NCBI GenBank assembly: GCA_020881915.1
Contig: JAJFPB010000010.1
Location: 1,488,001 to 1,552,000, forward strand
Direction of reading: 5' to 3'
Length of the DNA stretch: 64,000 bases
DNA from: Paramyrothecium sp. XJ0827
Lineage: Eukaryota; Ascomycota; Sordariomycetes; Hypocreales; Stachybotryaceae
Of the stretch, positions 7,172-47,192 are shown in pieces; the first letter of the stretch is position 1; each line of letters opens with the position of its first letter. The position numbers and the translations under genes were made by a program. The notes beneath the pieces were generated by a model that ran no database searches, was not told where the DNA came from, and was given only the letters and a program-made list of their open reading frames with translations.

Positions 7172-10100
7172 TTAGCTGAACAATTTCTTGAATGCAGCCT
7201 TGATACCACCAGCCTTCTTGTCAGATTCTCTCTTGCTTCGCTCCAACTGTCTCGCTCTACGCGCTGCATCCTCGGGCGGATGCTTTGTTGCTGATGAAGG
7301 TCTCGACCGCTCGGCTGCAACCTCTTCGCGGGCTTTGTCAAGCTTTGCACGGGACTCCTCGTGAGAGCGACGGGCCGATTTGTGCTTGGATCGCGAGGTG
7401 CTTGTTCGCTTAGGCGTTTCTTGTCGCGGCGAGTCGCGTGATCGGCGTCGAGGGGAGTCACGAGGGTCACTCCGGGGAGATTCTCGACGGCCCTCAGGGG
7501 GGGTTGCTTCTTCTCGTGGTGGCGTAGGCGGGCTACCTCGAAGAATTCCCTCCGAATTCTTGACATCGAAAAACTTCTTTTCAGGAAGCACAACGTCCTC
7601 TTGATCTGTCCGCTCCGCCGCTTGAGGCTCCTTGGGGGGCTCCGGCCGGGATTGGCTAGAGTGACTGTGGCGGCGGGATGACCGACGTTGCGCACGGTCA
7701 GTCTCGAACTGGACTTCTTTGCTGCGTCTATCTCTAGTGGGAGCTTCTCTACTGGCAGCTTCCTGGCGCTCTGTCTCTCTTTCTCTTGCACGTCGCTCGG
7801 CCTTGCGCCTTTCATGGGCTGCTTGCTCCTCAGGAGTCCTGTGCCTCCTTCCCGAGCTACCTGCACTATCTGCAGAAAACCCACTGTCGCGTCTTGGAGT
7901 TCTGGGCGGCGTCTTGAGTCCCCCGGAACCAGTGCTGTCGGCGCGATGACGGAGATGCTCTCTGTGGGATGGATGCTCACGGTCACGAGTACCGTCGTGT
8001 TCACGATGAGAGCGGTATTCACGACTTGAGCTCTCGCGATGAGATCCATGTTCTCTGGCTGCCTCGCGCTCGCGGAACGAGCGGTGTGAATGATGCGAGC
8101 CATTGGTGTCGCGGGATCCGTTGGAGGCCTGGGAAGATTGAGACGTCCTACGTCTTCTTTCTCTGCCTTCTTCGTCACCATGGCTTCTGCTTGAATGGCT
8201 TGAATGCCGATGCCTGCGATGCCTCTCTCTGTCTCTGTCGCCTCGTGACGATTCAGGGTCTCGAATTTTATCGTCTGTAAATACGTCAGCAAAGAACTCG
8301 CCGTCATCCTTGAAATCATCTCCAAATATCAACAATGCAGGCGGGATGACAGGAGACTCGGCATTCTTTGGATCCAACGACATCTCATCATCCAATACTG
8401 CCAAATCAGTTCCACTGGCATAGGCTTTTGCAGACGGGCTTCCTTGAGGACTCAGGACTTCGGCTGTTGCGTAAATGATGACGGCTGCTGCAACGGTGTC
8501 CTCAGCCTGCCTCAGTAGGATTTTTTCCTTGCGGCGGAGGGTGCGCCTGCGCTGCAGGCTGATCATCTCAGCGTCAGGAAGAACGATAGCAGGAGTCGCG
8601 ATTCTTGCATCCCCGACCTCAGAATCTGCCAGCGGTGTACAAGGCAGGCTCCCATAGCTCTTTCTGGAAAAGTAATCATCCGTTTGAGTTGATGAATGTG
8701 TTAGAGCTGGTCTCCTTGGAGTGGCTGGCTTAGTTTGGTCTTCCTCCCAAATAGCCGCTTCAAGGAAACGCTCGTTATCGGGCACTAGCAAAGGATTGGA
8801 AGATGATGAGCCAGAAGACTCTAGCATAGACATCTGGCGGTCGACAGAATCGAGAGGCCGTGCCTGTGGTGACATATCTTGCAATGACTCAGTTGATACA
8901 CGCTGTTTGACGCCCTGCTCTAGTTCTGGTTCCAGAGGCGTATCTTCGGAGGATAAGCTGGCCGCTGTAGACAGCCTTGTCAATGAATCAACCGTCCCAG
9001 GTAGACGAGCATCATCACTGAAGGGCGCGTCCTTCACAGACGAATCAACTAAGAGGTCCAGTTGTTGGCTGTGCAGTTCAGACCCAATAGCAGGTCCTTC
9101 AGCAAGTTGTCTCGTATCAGCCATTAGCCCTGCGGCAGCCAAATCGGCGGATCCTGGCAGCTCGGATGGTACGAGGTCCTCATTCTCTTGGCCTGATGAA
9201 CTATCTTCCTCCTTTGATTGCACTATCATGGCCACCTCAGCGGGATTGTGGGTCTTGACTTGGTTCGTGGTGGAAGTGTCATTCTCTAGGAACTGGCGCT
9301 CAACAACATCCTCGACCGTGACATCGTCAATCTTTTGCCCCTCGAGAAATCTGCCGACGTCGATGGGCTCGATTGCTTGGTCCTGATGCATTGCAAAATG
9401 CTTCTTCTCGTCTGGAAGGTCGACGTCGCTGGAGGGACTCGTGAGAGATCCATCATCAACGGGAACAACCTCATTCGGGGGAAGTATTGCCATCGAGGGA
9501 GTTTCAACAGGGACATTCTGGCTTTGAGAGCTTACATCGGCAGAGATCTCTTTGCACTCCCCAGGATACTCCAGTTCGGGTTCCTGAGCCGTGATCTCGG
9601 ACTCCGTTTCTTGGTTCATTGGCAATTCCAAGGTTTGGGTGTCTGCTGTAAACGCCGCTGTAGGATTTTGAGGCAAAGAGGAAGCATTCTCTTCGACATC
9701 TGCTAGGATGCATTGCGTAGATGTCGCGGCATTTGATTGCTCATTTTTCTCCTGTGGGACGAAGTTTTCGTTTAAAGGTGGCTTGTCCTGCGTAGGCGTT
9801 TCCAATGGTGAGGCAACGAGAGCTTGCAGTACACTTTCCGTGAATTGGGGCTCGAGTGATCCGATAAAAGGCGTTGATAGAGCGTTCCCGTCTTCTTGTG
9901 ACTGTGCCTTGACTGCGTGCATGACTTCATTGTCAGGCTCGACTTGAAGAGGATGGCTTTCTTCATCTCGCACAGGATATTCCTCTGTCATTTTTGTTTC
10001 ATGACAATACTGGTCGCTTTCTGGAATGGGGAAAAGAGTATCCTCGATTTCCTGGGACTCCATGGACTGAGCCACGGGTCTTTGTTGGCCTTCAAGATAG

Positions 10101-13100
10101 TTTGTTTTGTCAATGACGTCCCCCAGCTCAAGGCCATCGACAGTCCGATCCCGACCCTGAGCATTCTCAAGTTCAAGTTGACCTTCATCGCAATCCCCAT
10201 CAACATCTGTAGTGTTTGTTTGAAGTGCTGGGGAACATTGGCCACCTTCCCTGGGTAGTATCTGGTCCTTGCCTTGAGTTCCTGTCCTGTCATTGGGACC
10301 CTGTAATGCAAAGCTCGAAATATCTGTATGCTCAGGTCCAATCGTCTCCATGAGGCCATTGTCCAGAACTGTTGGCTCCTGTATGCGTACCTGTTCGGCC
10401 GTAACAAATGGTAGCCCTTCCTTGTTGGTGCTCACCACCTCATGCTGGAAGACCTCGGGGATAGGCTCCTGCAGCCCAGTATCATCTGCAGCCAGTAACA
10501 GCCCATCATCAAGGGCCTGGGATTCGCCGACCTCCTGTTTCCTGGGTATATCCTGCAAATTCAAAACCTCATGTACTTCTAAAGCCGCAACGCCAGTGTT
10601 ATTCTGTTCCAGTTCCAAAGGAGAATCCAGGTCTCCTTGATGATCCCATAAACCAAGAGAAGAAGTAGAAAATGAATCATTTTCCTCACCTTTCTTTGCC
10701 TGCTCAGCCTGCTTCGCTTCAGTGGGAATCGGTCCCACCGTATCCTTGCTCTCTTCTTCCTCCAACGCACGGGTCACCTCGGCGGCTTGTGCTGCCTCAA
10801 TGCCAACATCGGCTGAAATCTCAGGAGCCATTTCCGCCTCTCTGGGTGCTTCAGGCGCTGGCGCGGGCTCTACTTCCGTGTCAATAGCCCTGCTTGTTGA
10901 GTCGGCTGCTTCTGTTGCCACTTCTGCCGACGGTTGCGCCGCATCTACATCAATGGATCTTTCTGCTTCCGGCGTTTCACTGGCCTCGATAACAGGCTCA
11001 GAATTATCCCCTGGGTCAGCTGCGGGCGTTGGTGCTAGATCTGGCTCGGCAATTTTCTCAGCTTCAACCTCTGGCGTGACTTGAGCTTCCGCCTCGGGGG
11101 TGGCATTTTCTTCTGATGCAAGCACTCCGTCTTCCTGCTTAAGCCCAGCATCAGCCACCTCATCGGCTTCTTGCGCACCTGATGCAGTAGAAGCTTCTGC
11201 AAGCGGTGCATCCTCTGACGGGAGGTTTGTTTCTGGTGCAGCTCCTTCTGGTGACTTATCTGCAGCCTCGCTCGAGGCAGGAGGCTCCTCAAGCTCTGGG
11301 TTGGTTGCCTGTTCTTCAATTTCTGCCTTGATTTCGGTCGCTTCGCCTTGGTTCTCAGGCTCTGTCGCAGCCACTTCGGTAGGCTTGGCCTCCTCAGCAG
11401 CCGCCTCGAGTGCATCTTTATCATCCGCAGGAGAATGGTCCTCGTTGCCATCTTTCTTATCATTGGTCTCAGCCGCGTCCGGGGCGGCTGGGTCTCCCGC
11501 CTCAGTCACTGGCCCATCATCTACTGATGCTGGAGCCTCCTTGAATCCATCCTCGTCGGGCGTTTTCTGGATCTCAACTAGAGGTTCCTCTCGCACAGGG
11601 GGCTCCGACTTGTCTGCAGCAGGTTCCTCAACAGGGACAGAATCTGCAGTCTGTTCTGACAGTTCCTCTTGGCCAGTCGTCGTTGTCGATGCAGGCGGAT
11701 CTGGGGATGCTTCATTTTCTGCAACTTCAACACCATCAGGAGCACTTGGGGCCTCACTATTGGCCTCGGGCAGTTGATCAACACTGGGAGGTGTGTCAAC
11801 TACCGGAGTCTGCTCTTCGGCTAAAACTTCGGTTGGCTTAGCGACAGGATCCGCGGCCTCAGATTCTGTTGGCTCTGGGGCATCAGCTGGTAGAGGCTCA
11901 GCTACCGCAGCTGCGTGTGCTGCAGGTTCATCCTTGGCCTCTTCGGGCTCATCCTTTGCTACGTGTTCGGCTTCGGCCGCAGCACTCTCATTTTCGCCCA
12001 TCTCCACGATTGATACTGCTGAAGAGGGGTCCGGCTGAGGTGTCACATCTTCTGCAATGTTCACGGCTACTTCTGTAGTAGGAGGAACCTCATCCGCGCT
12101 TGGCTTGTTCTCTTCCACATCTGCTGCTTTATGACTGGATGTATCGTCAGCTTCCGGAGCTGCATCGTCTGCGTTTGAGGACTGGGTAGCGGCGGCCGTG
12201 TCAACCTCCACTTCCTTCTCCGGAAGAGTCTCAACCTCGGCGGCTGTATTAGATACATCGCCAGGGTCTGTGGTTGGCTCCAATGCAGCAACTTCTAATG
12301 CTGCGGTTGTCTCGTCGACAACCTCTGTCTTATTGTCATCTACGACAGATTCTGGAGCGGCCTCTGCTTCCTTTTCCGCATGTGCTTCATTCTTGGGATT
12401 GGCATCCTCTTCAGCTGTGTCAGGCGTAGTAATTTCCTCGGGGGCAAGTGCATCGTCTACAACGATGTCCTCCCCTCCCGTCTGTGCTGGTGTGGCGTCC
12501 TTGACGGCAGAATCATCAGACTTGACCTCTTGAGCTTCCTTCGGTTGAGGCTCTACTATCTCCGCTGATGCTGCCGGTTCTAAGGGTTTCTCTGCTGTAG
12601 TGGTCTCGGCTATGTCTCCAGCTTCAGCGGCTGCAGGTTGCGGCTCACTAGAATCTATATCCTTTTCAATCAAGTTCTCAGCTTGGTCAGCCTTGGTATC
12701 CTCAGTTGCCTCGGTGTCCTCCTTAGGAGGAGAGAGGCTGGCTGGTGATACATCGTCCACATCCTCGGCAGCGTCAATCTTGTCTTTCGGTGGCGGATCA
12801 AGCTCCGGGGTACCAGTAGGCTCGACGGCCGCTTCGCCCTCACTCTTTGCAGGATCTCCCGGGTTTGTAGTCGAGTCTTGAGGGCTCATAGCAGGTTCTT
12901 CAGGGCCAGGGTTTCCAGCGTCAGCTTTGATATCCTCGGCAAGCTCGTCTTTGCCCTTTTCCGCCACATCAGGGGCATTCTCTTCGATCAGAGACTTGGC
13001 GTCCTCAGCACTCTCTTGTTTGGAATCTTGAAACATTTCAGATTGGCCTGCTTCTGCTATCGTGCTGGGGGGTGTTTCGGGTTCCGCTAGAGCAGATATT

Positions 13101-16100
13101 TGGGCAACCGAAATAGCTTGGTTCTCATCTGATTCAGTAGGCTGCAAAGAAGCTTCCGTAACGGCATCATCGATAACCGTGGCATCGCCCTTTTCGCCTG
13201 TATCATCGCCATCATTCGCTGGCACAGAGGGTTCCGCTTCTTCCGAATGCAACTTGGTCTCGACTCCTGGCTCTGATGCTGATACCGTCTCTGCCGTTTC
13301 TGCTTTGTCTCCTTGTGGAGGCTCTTCACTTGCAATGTTGGTGGGTGCTTCTGCCAGTGTATCTTCCAGTGCGTCTGGCAAGTCAGTCTGGGCGGGAGAT
13401 GCTTCAACAGCCGTAGAGGGTTGGTTCTTCTCCGTCTCAATTTCTGTTGCTTCGAGTGCTGCTTCTGTTGCCACGTCTTGTTTTCCCTCGAGTTCCGCTT
13501 TCTCATCTGCGTCTACAGGAGCTGGAGCTGCATCTTCGGCTTTCTGGTCAACATCAGCCTCTTTCGCCAAGTCATCGCCACCGCTTGCCATGACTTCAGG
13601 CTCTTCACCCGTTTCAACAAGGTTTGGTGTTTGTTCTGGCGTGGGAGTGTCCGACGACTCGGCTTTATCTTGCGACTTCTCAGCATCCGCCCCGGTTGTG
13701 GCACCACTGACTTCAACAGCAGCCTCATCCTCGGCATTTTGTTCGGAAGTGGCTTTCTCCTCGTTGCCTGGGTCAGATTCAGCAGGTGGTTCGATCGTTG
13801 CTGGAGGCTCGATAGGTGCGCCAGGGTTCTCAGCGGCGATAGGTTCCTCAGCCTCGCCGGCTTCTGCAGGCACGTCTGGCTTCGTATGTTCATCCTCTTG
13901 AGAAGACTCAGCTAGTTGAACAGGTTCAGATAGTTGCGCAAGCTGAGTGGGTTCGCTGTCTGTACCAGTTTCGGCAGTTTCAGAAGGCTCCCTAGGTTGG
14001 TCTGCAACCTCGGTTGACTCGGCAGGTTCTATACTTGCCGTAGACTCCGGCTGTTTCGGATCTTCACTGATTTCACCAGAGTCAGGTGCCTCTGCAGTTT
14101 CAGTAATTTCAGCAGTTTCGGTAGGTTCCCCAGGTTTCGCAGATTCAGTAGGGTCCTCTGGTTTTGCCGGCTCAGTAGTCTCAGTAGGTTCCTCTGGTTT
14201 TGTAGGTTCAGTAGGCTCCTCTGCTTTCGCAGGCTCGGTCGTCTCAGTAGGTTGAGTAGACTCCTCTACTTTCGCAGGCTCGGTCGTCTCAGTAGGTTGA
14301 GTAGACTCCTCTACTTTCGCAGGCTCGGTAGGCTCCTCTGGCTTCGTAGGCTCAGTGGGTTCCTCAGCTTTTGCAGGCTCGGTAGGCTCCTCTGCTTTCG
14401 CAGGCTCGGTCGTCTCAGTAGGTTGAGTAGACTCCTCTACTTTCGCAGGCTCGGTAGGCTCCTCTAGCTTCGTAGGTTCAGTGGGTTCCTCTGCTTTTGC
14501 AGGCTCCTCTGGCTCGCTGGGTTGAGTAGGCTCCTCTGGCTTCGTATGTTCCGCTGGTTCAGCAGGCTCCTCTGCTTCCGCAGGCTCGCCGGGTTCAGCA
14601 GGCCCAGCAGGCCCAGCAGTCTCAGTAGGCTCAGTAGACTCAGCAACTCCAGTCGTCTCAGCAGGTTGAGCAGGTTCAGCAGGCTCGACAAGTTCAGCAG
14701 GTTCAGTGGGTTCGGCAGCTTCAGTGGGTACAACACCATCCACTGGTTGGGTAGGTTCCGCAGCTTCGGTAGCGACAGAAGGTTCAGGAGGTCCTTCCAC
14801 GGGTTCAGAAGCCTCAGTAGCTTTAGCAGGTTCGATAGGCTCAGTGGGTGCCACGGGTTCCGCAGGCCTGGTTTCTTCGATAGTCCTGTCAGACTCGGCA
14901 GTCTCAGCGCTCTCCTTGGGTTCGGCTAGATCAGTGACCTCAACGGTTTCCTTGGGCTCAGCTGGCTCAACGGCCTCAGCAGCTTCAGAGAGCTCCTTGG
15001 ACTCGGCTGGCTCAACGGCTTCAGAGGGCTCCTTGGACTCGGCTGGCTCAACGGCTTCAGAGGGCTCAGCGGCCTCGGCGGCCTCGGCGGTCTCCTTGGG
15101 CTCGGCTGGCTCGGGGGTCTCCTTGGGCTCGGCTGTATCGGCGGGCTCAGCGGGCTCAGCAGCTTCTAGGGTTTTCTCATCCACAGCCTCCGCAGGCGGT
15201 GCTTCAGCTGCAGCTGCAGCATCAGGAGCAGGCGCCTCTGCTGTGGGGTCGTCACACTTCTGCCCCGATTCACTCTCCTTTCCTTCGCTAGAATCTACGG
15301 GGGCATCTGGTTCTTGGACTGCGGCTGTGGGAGTTTGGGTCTCAGTCTCGGCCTGTGCGTCAGCCTGGGTGTCGGTCTCGGTAGGCTTCTCTAACACAGT
15401 TCCCTCCGCAGCTGTTGGTGCAAGCTCTTGGTTGGCTTCTGCGGTAGGTTCTTTCGTGGCTTCAACTGGAGCCTCATCCGCGGGGACCTCTGGCTTCGCA
15501 TCGTCCTGGGCTTCGGAAGCCTCAGGCGCAGTACCCTCAGCTGCCTCGGGCGTTGCCTCGGGTTCCTTCGTGGCTTCGACTGGGGCCTCTTCCGCGGGGA
15601 CCTCTGGCTTCGCATCGTCCTTGGCTTCAGAAGCCTCGGGCGCGGCACCTTCAACTACCTCCGGCGTTGCCTCCGGTTCCTTCGTGGGCTCAATTGGAAC
15701 CTCTGGCTTCGCATCGTCCTTGACTTCGGGAGCCTCGGGCGCAGCACCCTCAACTACCTCAGGCTTTGTTTCTGCGTCCACCTTGGCTGACGCATCTTCG
15801 GCAGGGGCTGTTGAACTGTCGACAGCTTCATCCACCTTGACATCGTCAACTTTGCCATCGTCTGCTTTGACTTCGTCGACCAGTGGGCTGGCTTCAGCTG
15901 CTTCGTCCTTGGCAGCCTCAGCTTGGGCTTCTGGCTCTGGCGCTGGCGCCTCGACTGGTGGCGACTCATCCTGTTGCTCAGGTGCGGGCGCTTCGTCGGT
16001 GATTTGAGGAGCATCGCCGGCTTCACCTCCTTCGACAGCCGGGGTCGAAGCTTCCGCTTCTTCAGGCTTGTCTTCGTGTGCTTTGACCTCCTCTTTCGTC

Positions 16101-17334
16101 TCTTCCGAGGATGGAGCAGCCTCCGCTGTCCCTTCCGTAGACTCTTCTACCGTCTTGATCTCTTCGGCAGGTTGGGCCTCATCGGCAGGCGGCGCAGCTG
16201 CTTCTGTTTCCGAGACGGCGGTCGTCTCAGCCTCTGGAGGGGGTGCCTCCACTGGCGCCGGCGAGCCCTCGACGGGAGGTTCGGTCGAAGCTGCATCGGG
16301 TGCGTCTTCTGAAGGGGAGGATTCACCATCGGCAGACAAGACGGCCGCCCCAACTGCGGCTGCCGCGGCCGCTGTTGCGGCAGCAGGGGATGAGTCAGCT
16401 GCATTCTTGTCCGGCTTCGATGTTTTCTTGGATTTCTTCTTCTCTTTGTCTTTCTCCTTCTTCTTGGCGTTTTTGCTCTTCTTCTTAGGCGCGGTCCGAT
16501 CGTCTTCGGGTGGTTCCTCCTTCGGGGGGTCTTCTGAAGGGGGCTCTTCTTTCAGCGATTCCTCTTTCGGGGGCTCTTCTGAAGGCGGCTCTTCTTTCAA
16601 TGTTTCCTCTTTAGGCGCTTCCTGTTTCGAAGATTCCTCCTTAGGAGATTCCTCTTTTTGGGGTTCCTCCTTGAGTTGCTCTTCTGGGGAAGTGTCTACT
16701 GCCGCAGGCTCGTCCTTTGCCGCGTCGGCCGAAGGGGCATCCGTATTTGAAGCATCATCTTTCTTCTCGCCTTCTTTGGGTGCTTCAGCCACAGGAGTCT
16801 GTGGTACAGAGGCTGCTGCTGGTTCCGATGACTGCTTGTTGCCTTTCTTCTTCTTGTCCTTTTTCTTCTTGTCGTTCTTTAGTGCTTCGGACCATTCGTC
16901 GTCCGCAGCTGCTGACGGAGCTTCTGGTGGTGGCGGCGGCGTTGATGGTAGAGGGGCTGGTTCTGTGGTCTCCTTGTCCTTCTTGACCACCTTTGGCTCC
17001 TCCACTACGACACCGGCATTCTTCTTATCCTTTTTCTTTTTGTTCTTCTTCTGGTTTTTTGATAATGGGGCCGGCGTGAATTGTGGGACGTCTTGTTGTC
17101 GGGCGCCAGGCTCGCCACTTAGCTCGTCGTTGACTATCAAATATCAGCCGGCGAGTTCTTTCAACGTTGATTGAACGTAACAATGGCCTGTAACTCACCT
17201 TGCTCCTGTGCCTGGTCGTCGTCGGAGTCTGAGATCTGCAAGTATTGAATGTTAGAGAAATCGGAGTATTGTACATTGGACAAGTCGAAATTCGACCGGT
17301 ATTGGCAATACTCGACGCCTGGGCCGGGATCCAT
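7172..17334 (-). CDS. Giant PEVK-like low-complexity protein (~3,365 aa)
   Basis: Exon 1 (17199-17334) begins MDPGPGVEYCQYRSNFDLSN and is joined by a 65-bp phase-1 intron (GTGAGT...ATAG) to one huge exon, 7172-17133. The predicted product is 3,365 residues. Order: short aromatic/acidic head; Lys-rich blocks (KKNKKKKDKK, KKKKDKKKKGNK, KKKEKDKEKKKSKK) within the first ~300 residues; a poly-Ala patch; about 600 residues of Pro/Glu/Ala/Thr/Lys triplet repeats (EEPTEPTKPEEPTEPAK type); a long acidic disordered middle; then an Arg/Ser/His-rich segment. It ends in a charged helical tail (EESRAKLDKAREEVAAER) and a basic terminus (GGIKAAFKKLFS). Fungal proteins of this look are often labelled involucrin-repeat or titin-like, and leashin-type septal tethers are one such class. 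I see no diagnostic leashin motif, so the role is unassigned. A large cytoplasmic tether or scaffold is inference. Confidence 0.85.
13900..15190 (-). repeat. Degenerate PEVK-like coding repeat array, with exact 45-nt copies
   Basis: The coding strand repeats a 3-codon theme (EPT/EPA/KPE). At nucleotide level a 45-nt unit is exact in tandem at 14236-14280 and 14281-14325 and recurs at 14407-14451, indicating recent unequal exchange or slippage. All copies keep the frame because the unit is a multiple of three. Confidence 0.85.
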
Positions 17335-38423: not shown

Positions 38424-40942
38424 ATGGCCACGAACTGGTCCATCTTCGTCCTAATATGGTTCATCACACTTGTATGCGGTCAAGACATCGTACTGCCCGC
38501 CCTAAGGCGCGAGTTCACAGAGTTCATTCCCGGCTGCGCTCAGCAGTGCTTTCGTTCCTTCCTCGCGGTCAACTACGGGCTGAATCCCTGTGGCCGGCTA
38601 CCATCTCTGGAATGTCTGTGTCGACGATCGGGGGCTTCAGGCTTCACTGTAAGCGAAGGAGCCCTGCAGTGCATTGCTGCTGAGAGGACCCTCGGATCTT
38701 GCTCAATAGTGGAGGCCAGTGGTAAGCTTATGAGAATAGAAGCCTTCGTAAACTTTCAGACTGACCTGTGAGCAGATTCGGTTATTCGGCAAGCACTACA
38801 AATATGTGACAGTGTCGAAGATGCTGTTCAGCCTACACATACCGTCATCACGGCGACGGTCGTGCTGCCTCCTTCTGGTAGCGGCCCTGTCACCGTCCCC
38901 CCTCTTGAGACCAGCACCCGGACGCCGAGATCAAGCGCTTTCACTTCGACCAGCAGCACTCCTTTGACCTCTTCTACTTCTGCTACGTCTTCAACCGTCA
39001 CTTCTCGCTCTCAGACGTCCCGCGTTACTTCGAGTTTTACCACGGCTATCCGGTCTTCTTCGACCGCCACACAGTCAACGACCGAAGCACCCCCTTTGCC
39101 GCCTCCAGCCGGGGGAGATAGCGACAATGCCGAGAGCAAGCCATCGCTGAACACACCGCAAGTGGTGGGAATTGCACTTGGTGTGGCTGCGGCTGTTGCC
39201 TTTGCCATTGGGGCCATCTTTTTGGCGCGGTACTACCGGAAGAAGAGGTATCCCGATTTAAAGACTGGATTCTTTCCGCCACGGGACACCTGGGGCTACA
39301 ATGTCGAGAAGGGCCCGGGCAATAGTTCGCAAACCTGGCTCGCTCGACAGACAGCGACAGAGTCATCTCCGGACCCAGTTCCTCAAATTCCTCCCGCATA
39401 TATGCGCCAAACATGGAGGCCGAGCGGCCCCCACACTTCGAGCCCTGCATCGTCGCAGCGGCGCACCACGAACCAAACTCCACCTACGAGGCGCACATCT
39501 AGGCTGCTTCCCGCGAAGCCTGTCCTTGCGCTGGCCGTCCCCAAGCAGAGCCCCTCGACATCCAGCCCAGGAAGCCAGCCAAAGACTTCGCCCCCCCGAA
39601 AATCTCCGGGCCGACAGACGCCCGGAAAGCCATCGCCCGCAAGATACTCACCCGCCAGACCATCGCCACCATCAAAAGAACCCCTACCGACAAAGCCTCC
39701 ACCTGCTGCGGTCTCCAGCAGATCTCGACCTCCCGGCCAGCTCAAACTAAAAATCCCGAAACTGGATAACCCTCTGCCACCACTTCCACTTGCTCAAAAT
39801 CGGCCCGAGAGCACAATGACTGAATTTGAGGAGGATGGCCGCACATCCATGTCGCCCAATGGTCAAATTTGGAGACCGCCCTCCGTAGGACCGTTGTCCG
39901 CAACGACGTACTATGTCGCCGACAAGAACGGCAATTGGGTCCTCGGCGGACCAAAAAGTGCCTCTCACGTAGCTGAGCTGGACGGATCTCCTGCAGAGCA
40001 GCCCAAGTCTGGGACTAGCTTTACAAGACCACATCTCCCTCGATCTAAATCCAGCCAGCAAACCTCCGGGACGTCTGAAACATCGTCTAAGTCGGTGGCA
40101 CAACAATCATTGGCCCCAGCTGCGGAAATCAAGTCGGCAGTGGAGATGGCTCGCCCACCCTTAAACCCTATTCCTGCCAACACCAATGCCCGCCGTCCAT
40201 CAATATCGACAAAACAGGACCCGTGGCGCCTGTCTCGCCGGCAGTCATCATCGCGGACGTTTGGCAGACCAAGGGCGGCCTCTACTGACAGTGGGGTTAC
40301 CACCATCTGCACATCGCCAGATGACTCCAACAGCATGGAGCTCCCAATGCCTACACCCCTGGTTCCTCCCCTGCCCAAACAGCCTGTCTATCTCTCTCCT
40401 GTCGTCGAGTCGCCAAAGTCAACAGCCCAGAACAAGGCTCCCGAGACCAACCCAAGCGACGCAGTGCGCCATAAAGACGTCGCAGCCGGCAGGAACTTGA
40501 ACATCCTACCTCCGAACAAACGTAACCTTTTGTACTCCCCCCCTGGCCAGCCGAGCCCTACGCTCGGTATAATGCAGCCGGGCCGGAATACCAGCACATC
40601 CTCTGGCCCTTGGAGGCCAGGAAGACCTCCCATGCCGAATCCAGGCTTGGTTAGGACGGGTTCTCCGACTATGAGGGTTGTAAGAGCATCTCCCGAGGTT
40701 GATGACCGTACGCAGCTCCCGTCCGTCAGACCGAGCCGTGCCCAGCAGCAACATCCTCAACAAGAACCACAGCGACAGCAGCAGCGGCAAAATCAACCGC
40801 AACAGCCCTTGCCTTATCGAGGACAGCCTTCCAACCGAGGGCCTCACCCCCTCAGCAAGGCATCTGGCGTCCCATCACCTCTTCGCATTGGCTATCAGCC
40901 ACGCCCATCGCAGCGACGAGAAGCTCCCACTTCAAACCCCCT

Positions 40943-40985
<43 letters not shown>

Positions 40986-41288
40986 CAACGAGTTCAGCCA
41001 CCGCCGCCGACCGCCGAGCTTCGCTCACCTACATCTGAGCGAACAGCTTCCACAGGCTCCTCTCTCCTCGCCAAACGGGTGGGCTCGGACCGCGCGGCCG
41101 ACATGGCCATGCCCACCTTTACTCACCCCTCCGCGGCTCACCACTGGCACCGTGATGCCGTTAACCCTCCGCCCGGTGTTATTCCTATGACGCCAAAGCT
41201 CCCTGGCGATCTACCTGCCACGCCGACGTGGGTGCCGCGGCTGACGCCCTCGCGGCGTGGAGATGACTTATTCCTCAACGTACAATGA
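38424..41288 (+). CDS. CFEM-domain single-pass membrane protein with long cytoplasmic tail
   Basis: Two exons, 38424-38721 and 38776-41288, across a 54-bp phase-1 intron, giving 936 residues. A Met five codons upstream (38409) is possible, but MATNWSIFVLIWFITLVCGQ is a clean signal peptide. The CFEM domain (~25-112) has eight cysteines in the expected order (PGCAQQC, NPCG, LECLC, ALQC, GSC, then ICD encoded just after the intron). A Ser/Thr-rich, probably O-glycosylated stalk follows, then one membrane helix (VVGIALGVAAAVAFAIGAIF) with a basic stop-transfer (RYYRKKR). The ~680-residue tail is Pro/Ser-rich with a 13-Gln tract. CFEM proteins serve in haem/iron capture, adhesion or surface sensing (Pth11-like receptors also use CFEM). 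The single-pass topology with a large tail suggests a wall sensor rather than a haemophore. Confidence 0.88.
40944..40982 (+). repeat. (CAG)13 microsatellite coding poly-Gln
   Basis: Thirteen uninterrupted CAG codons lie within the cytoplasmic tail of the CFEM protein. A pure trinucleotide tract is prone to length change while keeping frame. Confidence 0.97.
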
Positions 41289-41597: not shown

Positions 41598-44500
41598 TCA
41601 TGTAGTGTTACGTGCAGAATATACCCCCGTTGTTCCGTCTTCATTGACTTCAGCAACGGTCTGACCCATGAAGCATTCCCGCTCAACAAATTGTGATGAC
41701 GGTGGCGATGGGGCACTCGATGCACCTGGACCCAGATTTTCCATTTCAATATCTTGTGTCGAGTCACTGTCCCGCGTACTTCGATGGGAGTGCCTTGAAG
41801 CCTTGTTCCGTCCACTTGCTTTGCGGAGCAACTCATGGGCATCTCTGCGAATCTCACTCATGTGATCATCAAGTGCCTCCAAGCCCTGATCCAAAGCTGC
41901 ACGATTTAGATGTGCGCTCTCATCTATCAGTTCATTCTGCTTCCGTATCTCCTGCCATCGGGTCATGCTACCTAGCTCTAGAAAATTCATGCGACGGAAT
42001 TTTCCCACAGGATGGCCGATCATGACAGGACGCCATGCCTTCTCCTCGTCAAGAATCGCCTGGGGATCGTCAGGCATAGACGCTCGTCTTGCCGCAGACG
42101 CGCGACGCGCTTCCACAATCTCATCCATTACGGCCGATCGCGATCTAGGTATAATTTGCACGTCCTTGAAGCGGACTAGAATGAGAAGTAACAGTGCTGT
42201 AAGGAAAAGAAAAATACCAGCAACTACACCAGTTGTGACCTGTTGGCCCAGTGTTCGACTGATCTGGCCACCGAGAGCTGTCGATCCAGCAGCCAGAATG
42301 AAAGCCAAGGAATGGGTGACGGCAAAACCTGCGGTCACTCGCGGATATGCCGAGTAATTCGTTCTCTTTTGATGCTTGCCAGTTGCGTCTCGAACCTTTC
42401 CAGTCATTCCTGGCAAAAGGTCTGACGTGTCAAACGTCTCCATGATCAAGCCATTGCATTCGGAAATTGCCAGACATGACAGAAAACCCATGCAGATTGC
42501 GAATAAAGTGGGAAGACCAACACTGAGGGGAGGGCCCGAGGAGACCGCAGTATAACATATGCCCGCCACCGGCAATAATGTTGTAAATATTGCGCGGCGT
42601 ACCAGGTGCGAGGACCATGTTGTTTTCCCTTCCAGTGTTAACCTGCTTGACTCCAGTTTTGCCTTCCGGTACCTGGAGAAAATATTGGCTTTCTGAAATG
42701 GAATTGCCAAGACAGCACCTAATGCAATACTTGCAACGTGAAGTCCGACATATGGAGATCGAAGACGGTAGAATCGGCTTGTTAGGGATCCAAGTAAGAC
42801 AATGATCAAGACAATTTGTGCATAAATCCAAGCCGTGTATAAGCCCATGACTGCGAAGCCTGGTTGGTGCAGCATCTCGCAAGAGAGACAGATGCCATGA
42901 TACATCTCCTGTCCCCACCATTTGGGACCAGTCTTGACCCGATGCATCATAACTTCACCCCGGGCAACTCTGCGAGAGACATCGGGGCCGGTCCTTACTT
43001 CCGCAAGTGACCGCCTGAAAGGGGATCGTCGAACCTCCGGTGATATGATGTTCAAGACAAGTATAGCAGCAATGAGTAAAATGCTGACATAGAATCCCCA
43101 AACGGGGGGTTGCTTGTCGATGATAGAAGCACCGACGAGGAAACCAACGCTGAGGGATCCAATCCAACACCATGTCCATATCCCAAGCCAAACTCCCATA
43201 CCGCCACCGTGCCGTCTCGCATCGAACTCATCGACAATCTCCTGATGAGGGTTCCTACTCATCAGAGAGGCTCCAAATAAGTCGGTTAGCGTAGAGTGGA
43301 AATTCATGCTCGCAACACCTAGTGATACGCCCATCAAGCCCCGCGACACAAGCAAAAGAGCTCTCCACCATTCAGTGTTGGTCAGACGTTGAGAATTGAT
43401 CGAGATAGCCTGGAGAAATAGCAAAGGCATCGCTAAACCCAGGCCAGACAATACGTATGGCTTTTGGCCATGAAGTAGTGGTAATGGCCACAGGAAAAAC
43501 GCAGGCAGTGCTAGGCCTGCAAAGCAGCCAGTATTTCCATGAATGGCGATTCGATGGGTGTCAATGATGTAGTATTGAATAGAAGGCACCAATCCAGCAT
43601 AAATTCCGAGTACGATTCCCACAGCAGCTGTGCTGATACAGGCGACGGAAGCAACGAATCTTTTGCGATGGGAAGACTAGTCCCTTGCAATCGGCTGCCT
43701 TTTATGAGACCTTGCAAGGCTAAACCCCGAGACATCTCTTAGACTGACATGAGATCTTCCTCGAAGACTGATGCCATGCTCATGACGTGAAGGCCGTCCT
43801 GAGATATCTTGGGCTGGGAGGCCACCATCTCGGATGCCGCGAGCTCTCAACTGTGAATGCTGACCAATAGCACCAAGAGAGCTTGGAGTTTTCGCGTGCT
43901 GGGTAGCAGGGTAAGAACTGAAATCTACGAATTCAGTTGTACTGGAGGTCAAGTTCCGCAGATGAGTGCTTCTATACTTGCCAAGGGCCGCATCCTTTGC
44001 GTTTGCTAAGTCCATGCAATCTGGTTGTCTACCAAGAAGCGGACCAGTATACTGAGATTTGGCCTTGCTCGAATGCCTCTCAGGAATTTGAATAGCAAGA
44101 CGGGCTGGGACTTGCATAACCTCATGCCTGTGTTTAATCCAAGTTTCTTGGCCTCTATGTTGCCCACTTGCATTGCTTCTGAAGGCTTCATCAACTTCGC
44201 CAAAGATATGAGCTTCTGGATGGCGAGGTAGAGGCCCCTCGCAGACTTGGTGATAGCACCCTTCCTCCAAGCACTCATTTCTCAAGTGCAAATCGAGTAG
44301 TTCATCCGAGGACTCCAAACAGCGATGTACCTCTGGGGGTTCGTCTTGCCACCTGTTGAGGCTGATATCCCTAGCTTTCTGAGGGCCGTGATCAGCAAAT
44401 GTGCGATCGTTATCTACCGGAGAGGAAGGGTAGGAAGCATCAATAACCTCGGCTGCAAGATCAAGAACCTCATTAAAAAGGGATTCCAAATCGCAAACTG

Positions 44501-47192
44501 CTCGCTTGAAGGTTTGATTATCTAACTCAGGATTCGATCTGGTAGACAGTGGAGGATTTTGGACGGGTTGCTTGGCCAATTTTGTATTTGAGAAAATAGG
44601 TTCAGATGGCCTTCTTGGATACTGTTGGTGCGGAAACTCAGCTTTTCCCTTAGTTGGCAACCTGGTGAGGCTACATTTGTAGCCATTACGTCTGCTAAAG
44701 AAATTCCGAAGCCATTTCGCTGTACTCTTGTAGTCGTTGAACGACCGATCTGGTGTTGACGAGTATTCAGAAGAGGTACTCCTCCGGGTTGCTCCCCAGC
44801 CATGCTCCAGGGCTTGTATTGGTTCGGCATTGCTTTGAGTCGAGTGGTCTAGAAGTAGGGCACACTCATCGATGATGCGATGGTCATGGCATCTAGGGTT
44901 GGGCATCTTTGAATGATCAGAGCTGTCTGGCGTTCTCTGCGATGGCTGGTGCGACATTTGCTTAGGTATGGGGTCTGAGATCGCAACGGAAGGCACTTGT
45001 AGCCGTAAACTTGTTGACTGTTGACCTTGTTTCCTAGGCAAAACTTCATAGCCTCGTCCATTATTATGCGGAATCGTGCTTGAATCCGGCGCTGTTGGTG
45101 TATCGGGACCAAGCTTAGGGCCGCTGAAAAAAGCAAGAGAAGGTTTGCCTGCGCATAGTTTGTGTGAACATCTGCTGCACTGTTCTATCTCATGCTGAGA
45201 ATTTCCGGTATAACTAGGATACTGGACGCAGCTTGATTGTTCATGGAAACCAGGACAAGGTAATACTGGGTATACCGCGTCGCGATTCAAGCGATGCTCC
45301 TGAGCATTGGCATAGACTGGAACAACGGCGCATCCCGACATTGAGTGTTTGTTTGCTAAGCCTTGAATTGATAGCATTTGGCAGTCTCGAATATCATGCC
45401 GGAAAGGGCCGGAATGAATTGGATACATCGAACACTGAGTAGTTTCGTGTTGTATACCTGTGCGGGCCACAGGTGTAATCGTATAATTTGGGAAGCCATG
45501 CTGGTCTGGGCCAGCGTAAACTGGATGGTTCGCGCACTGTGAATCGGGGTGTTTCACAGGTTGGGTTGGTTCAATGGGTGTGGAACAGTTCTCAATCCGA
45601 TGTTCTCTTAACCTTGTATAGGTAGGATCATTCATAGGTCGAGTGACTCCGCGCTGGCTGTTAGGATTGAGCAAAGAGCTGTTGACCTCTTGCGCAACAT
45701 GGTGCAGTCCAGGTGACTGGTATGTCATCGTACTATCAAATCCCCTTGGATGTCGTTCTAGGCTTCCAATAGTGTCAGGTTTGGCTTCTTGCGTTTGCTT
45801 GCCAGAAAACACTTTGCCGCTCTCCTGGTGCCTATAATGGGTGGGACCACTGAACCCGGCTTGAGCTGTTTGTCGAGCCCATTCGTTTGGGTTAGGCACT
45901 GCAGGATCACCACTCCGAGTTCCTCGTATCGAGATGTCGCCCATATAACCCTCTGGCAACTTTCTCCCCACCACAGAATGAGGGTTATCAACTGTTGGCC
46001 AAGGTCTCCGGCTCGCTTCTGCCAATTCGTCGAGGTATGGGGCGTGGAAGTTATCTGGTTGCATAATATCTCGAGTGTGTTCCCTGCCGTGCTCATAAAA
46101 CCAAGAGAAGCTTGATTGATCCCTGATTTCATTACTATTGTTTCCTTTCGCAAAATCTGGAAGGGCCGCATGCGGATAGCCCCTCAAGTTTTGTAGTTCA
46201 TGCAGCGACGTTGCGTAGTGACTGCTACCTCGAAGGAGGCCTTCTTGAAACGGGAGCATTGTCTCTGCCATCTGGGAAGTGCCATCGGATGGGGTCAAGG
46301 GCCTGGTGACATTGCTTCCAAAGTCCTCATTGTCCTGTGTATGGCCATTTTGAGCCGCCGAGTTATGCTTACCTGTGGAGGATTCATCCTCCTCATCGTC
46401 CACAACATTCAGATGTTGCTCTGCTAACATGAATTCAAGGTTGGGGTCAAATGGGGATACTTTTGGCCGGTACTAGCGAGGGTTGGACTGCGAAGACTGC
46501 GAAAGTTCATCTTGCATGCCTAGAGGCGACAAAGACTCCGCAATAGCTTTGTCATCGCTAGGAACTGCCTTTTCACTGGCATTGTGAGACTCCCACTTCA
46601 TGGTATCGATCCGTACTAGCGTATTGTCCTTTTGAAGCGGCGGAGCAGATCTCTTTGAAATCGGCCACATGAGTTGGTCTTCGGAAGACTCCACAGGTGT
46701 GTGTAAGCTTAAAGTAGAAACAGCAGGGTTCTTGCTCGTAGACATGAAAGCGCTCGTTGAGCTGCGTTCGATTAGAGGGGCAATGAGGCCTGTTCCATTT
46801 CTCTCCACCAATAGCACAGGCGGAGGAGTTTGAGGAAGTGCCAATGACTGTCTAGACGAAGCGGATTGTCGGTTTTCATCTTCGGAGACGGGCTTGGGGT
46901 CTGCAGCTGCATGGGTACGTGGTAAGGACGAGCGGCTCAGTACTGGAGGGATCGGTGAAGTCCGATCAACGATGATCGGGCCACTGGCAGACGTCTTGAG
47001 GAGATGGTGATGACGAACGTTGTTGTTTGGTTCCGAAGAAAATGGGTAAGGCTTCATATCTTCGTCGTCTCGTAATTTAGCAAAGGATGGCCGAGTACTC
47101 GGCGCCGGTGTTCGATCAAAGTCCCCAACATCCATGTTATCGCAGTCTACAGGCTCTAGGGCTTGCGTGTAGCTATGTAATGTTGCAAACAT
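41598..47192 (-). CDS. Giant MFS transporter gene, one frame interrupted by two in-frame UAG codons
   Basis: From the ATG at 47192 (first AUG of the transcript side, GCCATG context) to TGA at 41598-41600 the same minus-strand frame runs 1,865 codons with only two interruptions, UAG at codon 240 (46473-46475) and codon 1172 (43677-43679). Codons 1-1171 are Ser/Pro/His-rich and disordered, with Cys/His-containing degenerate repeats (CSMYPIHSGPFRHDIRDC style). From ~1177 comes a polytopic MFS domain of about 12 helices: RKRFVASVACISTAAVGIV, RHGGGMGVWLGIWTWCWIG, SPEVRRSPFRRSLAEVRTG, FDTSDLLPGMTGKVRD. A cytoplasmic acidic/basic tail ends it. Fungal relatives, often labelled polyamine or multidrug MFS, have the same disordered head fused to the MFS core, so both sides belong together. 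Without recoding only a 239-residue fragment would be made. No frameshift or UAA/UGA occurs. A 5'-UTR intron (about 47281-47330) is plausible. Confidence 0.72.
43677..43679 (-). other. In-frame UAG (codon 1172), candidate recoded Trp
   Basis: The frame reads PIARD-UAG-SSHRKRFVAS. From memory, relatives have Trp at this place (PIARDW before the first helix). The transcript can fold as UUGC/GCAA outer stem, AA/AUC internal loop, GGGA/UCCC inner stem and a 7-nt loop CUAGUCU, so the A lies in the loop with U before and G after it. Confidence 0.6.
46473..46475 (-). other. In-frame UAG (codon 240), candidate recoded Trp
   Basis: The frame reads SQSNPR-UAG-YRPKVSPFDPNLEF and continues open on both sides. 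The local sequence CUAGU is shared with the other site. Only a weak 3-bp stem (UCG/CGG) flanks a 7-nt loop CUAGUAC here. Confidence 0.5.

Follow-up and report, generated by a model that had tools for sequence, protein, structure and literature searches.

In a 64,000-nucleotide stretch of the genome of the ascomycete Paramyrothecium sp. XJ0827 (contig JAJFPB010000010.1 of assembly GCA_020881915.1, positions 1,488,001 to 1,552,000, referred to here as the window), we analyzed a long minus-strand gene that, judged by its sequence, is a member of the Amd1 family, in which a long N-terminus is followed by a transporter of the major facilitator superfamily (MFS). The frame of this gene occupies positions 47192-41598 and runs from an ATG at 47192 through 1,864 codons to a TGA at 41600-41598. 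It contains two internal stops, both TAG, at 46475-46473 (codon 240) and 43679-43677 (codon 1172), and neither a frameshift nor any further stop was found across its 1,864 codons. Over the same span, the remaining five frames contain 77, 71, 90, 61, and 104 stops, and with two internal stops against 61 to 104 in each of the others, this frame must be coding rather than open by chance. As TAG makes up 114 of the 403 stops of the other frames (28%), finding two TAGs out of two would be unremarkable on its own, and the striking part is the absence of anything else.

The two stops divide the gene into an N-terminal piece of 239 codons (46476-47192), a middle piece of 931 codons (43680-46472), and the MFS transporter part of 692 codons plus the TGA (41598-43676). 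Around the second UAG, the minus strand spells RQPIARD-TAG-SSHRKRFVAS, and the frame then stays open to the TGA. A preliminary description of this DNA had reported a UAG inside a minus-strand frame that continues past it, and the frame and the stop counts bear this out; the stop it described is the one at 43679-43677, whereas the upstream UAG at 46475-46473 had been missed. Searches of the 51.8-Mb genome with the MFS piece and with the middle piece gave a single match apiece, namely the gene itself, and thus no second copy.

None of the three pieces matched a Pfam family at E ≤ 10, so the assignment to the MFS rests on homologues, a structure model, and a fold search. A crude hydropathy scan of the MFS part returned 12 hits, the first two of which overlap, leaving ~11 distinct segments. 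For the 692-residue part, AlphaFold2 gave a model (mean predicted local distance difference test score (pLDDT) 76.9, predicted template modeling score (pTM) 0.78) with 12 long helices by our count; used as a query, it matched MFS structures (VMAT, FLVCR, and EmrB), amine and choline carriers among them. The 12-helix MFS domain claimed in the preliminary description agrees with these results. The first helix of the model begins at residue 2 of the 692-residue part, so the second UAG lies where the soluble part of the protein meets its membrane part.

A search with the MFS part plus the junction gave 580 matching proteins, and many of the matches listed bear the name polyamine transport or MFS transporter. 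Among the named matches listed, Paramyrothecium foliicola P0090 is the closest, with 93% identity over 73% of the query region. From residue 1263 on, 531 of the 574 aligned residues of the MFS part are identical in the two species (92.5%), and from residue 1293 on, there is no indel. In the N-terminal piece, 153 of 237 aligned residues are identical to P. foliicola P0090, and the middle piece is weakly conserved save near its end. The gene thus displays the architecture of the Amd1 family, a long N-terminus and then an MFS domain with ~11-12 transmembrane segments, and homologues extend over 100% of the query region. No record named FGRRES_10094, the AMD1 gene of Fusarium graminearum, was present among the matches listed. 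F. pseudograminearum P0029, a protein of 1,314 residues whose first transmembrane helix (TM1) begins at residue 618, carries a Trp at its residue 613, which corresponds to the second UAG; compared with the published F. graminearum AMD1, it is 72 residues shorter than the 1,386 given, and its TM1 lies where the paper puts the start of the MFS domain (PMC5496914).

To place codon 1172 among relatives, we used 254 homologues from three lists ordered best-first (the best 120 of 580, of 501, and of 483 matches), clustered at 90% identity and hence not a random sample; for the first and third lists, only the candidates with the largest number of shared words were scored. Residue 1172 is covered by 175 of the 254 listed homologues, with Trp in 161, a gap in 11, Tyr in 2, and Lys in 1. 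The statement of the preliminary description that relatives carry PIARDW here was therefore correct, and a UGG at the second UAG would yield the residue that the relatives conserve. In the first list (best 120 of 580), the R and D preceding the site are present in 110 of the 110 homologues covering them. Lichen fungi and Dothideomycetes, at 51-58% identity, retain the Trp as well, often with Asn in place of Asp before it, so that codon 1172 corresponds to the nearly invariant Trp of an A-R-D/N-W motif directly before TM1. The exception, Alternaria P0212 with a Lys in the Trp column, is perhaps a wrong gene model.

Thirteen of the 175 homologues (the 11 with a gap and the 2 with Tyr) are gene models that dodge codon 1172. 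In the first list, column 1172 has 10 gaps, against a mean of 0.70 gaps per column and a maximum of 8 (at residue 1267) over residues 1200-1740. All columns with at least 10 gaps (1155 and 1162-1172) fall within the block of 24 residues that leads up to and includes the site. Nine of the 11 gapped models miss exactly the 24 residues H|VSL...RDW|S, which match a 72-nucleotide in-frame stretch at 43677-43748 in the window. As the model intron closes at the third base of the codon, the codon would end in AG in these nine, assuming GT-AG introns. The two Tyr models read ARDY and then TAL, the codon being split after two bases and its TA joined to a C; since the TA is kept and the G serves with the next T as the donor, the codon would have been TAG in both, under the same assumption about introns. 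Two further models, those of Trichoderma ceciliae (P0084) and P. foliicola (P0090), lack the site too, but their gaps have different boundaries. In all, an AG-ending codon is predicted in 11 models, from Fusarium fujikuroi, F. oxysporum (two records), F. kuroshium, F. albosuccineum, F. zealandicum, F. sarcochroum, Trichoderma virens, T. chlorosporum, Metarhizium album, and Dactylonectria estremocensis.

Annotation has been described as evading edited UAGs by inventing introns or by choosing a later Met as the start (PMC4817773, PMC11169179). Among the 254 listed homologues, 79 begin after the site, some only 3-11 codons after it, and 34 (within P0184-P0254) begin at the Met that matches residue 1287, perhaps because some clades have a further stop upstream or an intron. 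Given these 34 starts, we did not count late-starting models as evidence for an edited stop.

We then mapped the state of the codon on a tree of 145 rows, of which 12 are scored as TAG (the window included), 123 have Trp, 2 are uncertain, and 8, whose models begin after the site, have no state; P0123 and P0131, which have gaps, and P0147-P0255 except P0149 were left out. Codon 1172 changes state at least nine times on the 135 rows with TAG or Trp, and 10 times when the two uncertain rows are added; as the tree comes from a quick LG+G4 search without bootstrap, these nine changes cannot separate gain from loss. Among the neighbors on the tree that bear Trp, next to models with a predicted TAG, are F. 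bulbicola and D. macrodidyma. The stretch containing the site is absent from the P. foliicola model, and the second UAG therefore probably predates the split between the two Paramyrothecium species.

The sequence around the second UAG was compared with known editing sites. At the neighbors of the A at 43678, C at -2, U at -1, and G at +1 are the preferred letters and U at +2 is neutral according to published site preferences (PMC9600606). With 30 nucleotides on each side, the published way of scoring editing-site hairpins, the UAG falls in a 7-nucleotide loop, CUAGUCU, closed by a GGGA/UCCC stem (43670-43684), with the A third in the loop and a minimum free energy of -14.5; 5 of the 1,162 UAG triplets on both strands of the window fold with such a loop. 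The second UAG thus has both the U at -1 and, in this fold, the A in a loop. By analogy, an A third in a 7-nucleotide loop resembles position 34 of an anticodon loop, a comparison that we draw here.

We also looked for signs that the genome has the capacity to edit mRNA. A kinase on C7 (L006:3073-3078) reads GRCD-TAG-TAG-SIG where CBK1 and STK38 have CDWWSLG, and this TAGTAG at the WW of the NDR kinases makes it the putative PUK1 orthologue. The tandem UAGUAG of PUK1 is where such editing was discovered. Neurospora crassa and F. verticillioides are reported to have only one of the two PUK1 UAGs (PMC4817773). Several other kinase matches in the genome carry a single TAG and no other stop, and may contain introns or further edited stops. 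Three DUF726 genes were found, of which one (C8:2186795-2187879) has M500, V501, S531, D589, and H629 at the spacing of Ame1. A second, on C7, has the spacing of S, D, and H without the MV, which makes the MV the telling part of the Ame1 signature, and the third, also on C7, has no MV in the alignment. The MV at 500-501 of Ame1 is reported to be indispensable for mRNA editing and to be a typical feature of Sordariomycetes (PMC11087585). A search aimed at MAT1-1 found an alpha-box gene at C9:2591643-2592074, which makes a sexual cycle possible at least in genetic terms.

Sexual-stage adenosine-to-inosine (A-to-I) editing of the second UAG is, in our judgment, the likely explanation of these data, and it is also how the preliminary description had interpreted the site. 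That observation is confirmed and its interpretation supported, and it was understated, as there are two stops and not one. From unedited mRNA, nothing but soluble fragments of the N-terminal part would be made, and no transporter. In sexual tissue, the tRNA deaminase Tad2-Tad3, redirected to mRNA by Ame1, would deaminate the middle A of the UAG; the edited codon would be read as Trp, and the ribosome would proceed into the MFS domain. We infer both that editing occurs and that it is stage-specific, and the transporter may act at the ascus membrane, like Amd1 of F. graminearum. The full-length protein is then probably made only with mRNA editing during sexual development. The high identity of the MFS part to P. 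foliicola, downstream of both UAGs, supports this reading.

Several observations weigh against it. In the fold with 30 nucleotides per side, the hairpin has a z-score of only -1.49 (16 of 200 shuffles are as stable), and the z-score rises to +0.50 with 101 nucleotides. With 30, 50, 100, and 200 nucleotides per side, the pair that closes the loop has a probability of 0.91, 0.17, 0.31, and 0.015, respectively. The hairpin of the preliminary description was hence found again in its GGGA/UCCC stem and 7-nucleotide loop at 30 nucleotides per side and proved unstable in longer contexts, and we rejected it as strong evidence for editing because it depends on context length. C at +3 and U at +4 are both depleted at F. 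graminearum sites, and hairpins are said to count more where the neighboring letters are less preferred (PMC9600606).

The first UAG raises a further difficulty, since it also interrupts the frame and the full-length product would need a second, less convincing editing event there. At this codon, the relatives have no Trp in a poorly aligned region, and the A is paired in the fold with 30 nucleotides per side, with no hairpin loop. It has an A at +3, the reverse of the second UAG, which has the depleted C at +3 and a local hairpin. The P. foliicola model runs past this place with only a 2-residue gap, so the first stop is probably young. Whether it is edited too is about evenly balanced. We could not assign it as the counterpart of the UAG of F. 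graminearum AMD1, the region being too divergent. Lastly, RID and SPO22 carry edited stops in F. graminearum. In the present genome, no stop was found in the matched parts of three DNA-methylase matches, among which RID was not singled out, or in the matched part of the sole SPO22 match. Between F. graminearum and Sordaria macrospora, conservation of individual editing sites is reported to be rare (PMC5381528).

Because the base change that creates the TAG also creates an AG acceptor, splicing is the main rival of editing: 43748-43677 would be a real 72-nucleotide intron in frame, with the UAG as its acceptor, and the mature protein would lack 24 residues including ARDW. The stretch has a donor, GTCAGT, that matches GTAAGT at 5 of 6 positions, a CTAG acceptor, a CTCAT 29 nucleotides before its end, and a length that is a multiple of three, and exactly these residues are removed in nine homologous gene models. 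Yet the CTCAT is the sole branch-like site, and false introns over edited UAGs are a published annotation error (PMC4817773, PMC11169179). Moreover, the 24 codons in the window still spell the family sequence HVSL...RQPIARD, including the R and D found without exception in the first list; an old intron should have decayed, so old and constant splicing is disfavored, and we consider splicing an unlikely explanation. In FgBUD14, the site UA1334G also lies inside a stretch removable as an intron, and editing and splicing are described at that one site (PMC11156358); the difference is that alternative splicing is reported there and only conceivable here. A combination of both processes would make the UAG a three-way switch, serving as the acceptor of a 72-nucleotide in-frame exitron, as a stop, or as Trp after editing, since deaminating the A would destroy the AG acceptor while turning the stop into Trp. 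Vegetative cells would then make a truncated protein or a transporter shorter by 24 residues and without the ARDW motif, asci would make the full transporter from edited mRNA, and the arrangement would have arisen repeatedly at one codon across Hypocreales. We regard such a switch as improbable; the word exitron was not found in the ten literature matches listed, out of 609, on RNA editing or stop codons in Fusarium and ascomycetes.

The two stops, one of them probably young and at a non-conserved place, might also mark a pseudogene or a decaying gene in a lineage that has abandoned sexual spore discharge, in which case they would be plain loss of function. This too is improbable, given a frame of 1,864 codons free of frameshifts and further stops, an MFS part conserved as described above without an indel from residue 1293 on, a second UAG that probably predates the split from P. 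foliicola, and the retention of the PUK1-like and Ame1-like genes. Programmed or leaky readthrough of the UAG without RNA editing would keep the downstream frame under selection just as well, but it leaves unexplained the recurrence of the stop at a nearly invariant Trp, a single base away from TGG and alongside relatives that carry Trp, and its probability is very low. Least credible is an assembly or sequencing error: the codon is known from a single genome, but an AG-ending codon is predicted at the same place in 11 other homologous models.

Elsewhere in the window, an open frame of 838 codons (38772-41288, plus strand) is convergent with the Amd1-family gene and encodes a hydrophobic segment and a poly-Gln run. 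Another of 3,323 codons (7172-17143, minus strand) consists mostly of Pro/Glu-rich low-complexity repeats.

Sexual-stage editing of the second UAG would have close parallels. In F. graminearum, AMD1 (FGRRES_10094) is described as encoding an MFS-domain protein at the ascus membrane on which ascus wall integrity and ascospore discharge depend; its premature UAG (nucleotides 631-633) is edited in 97.6% of transcripts in perithecia 8 days post-fertilization, and the intron annotated there was false (PMC5496914). The present gene shares with it the long N-terminus, the C-terminal MFS domain, and a premature UAG inside the frame, but one UAG, at codon 211, is described in AMD1, and here there are two, one of them at the Trp of ARDW. 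As in PUK1 and STK-21, a UAG occupies a conserved Trp codon of a domain and is TAG or TGG depending on the species (PMC4817773), although the domain is a kinase there and a transporter here. The conserved UAG of Fusarium CHE1 causes three kinds of annotation error, of which the false small intron and the start at a later Met were also seen here, the third being a model that ends at the stop (PMC11169179); unlike the present candidate, it is reported to be edited in hyphae, and its product is a zinc-finger factor.

As the gene belongs to the Amd1 family, the principle is already known, and only the site is new. A literature search returned no report of RNA editing under Stachybotry- names, the other names of the group not having been searched together with editing. 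From sequence comparison, we thus describe a new candidate site in a lineage for which we found no such report; the phenomenon and the gene family have both been published before. It would be a further candidate edited stop, at a nearly invariant residue, in a family already known to need such editing. With a predicted TAG present in a number of genera next to relatives that carry Trp, codon 1172 offers a natural series on whether sites of restorative editing are selected or are gained and lost by drift. Our results also suggest that public gene models, through their exact gaps and split codons, can reveal candidate edited stops even without RNA.
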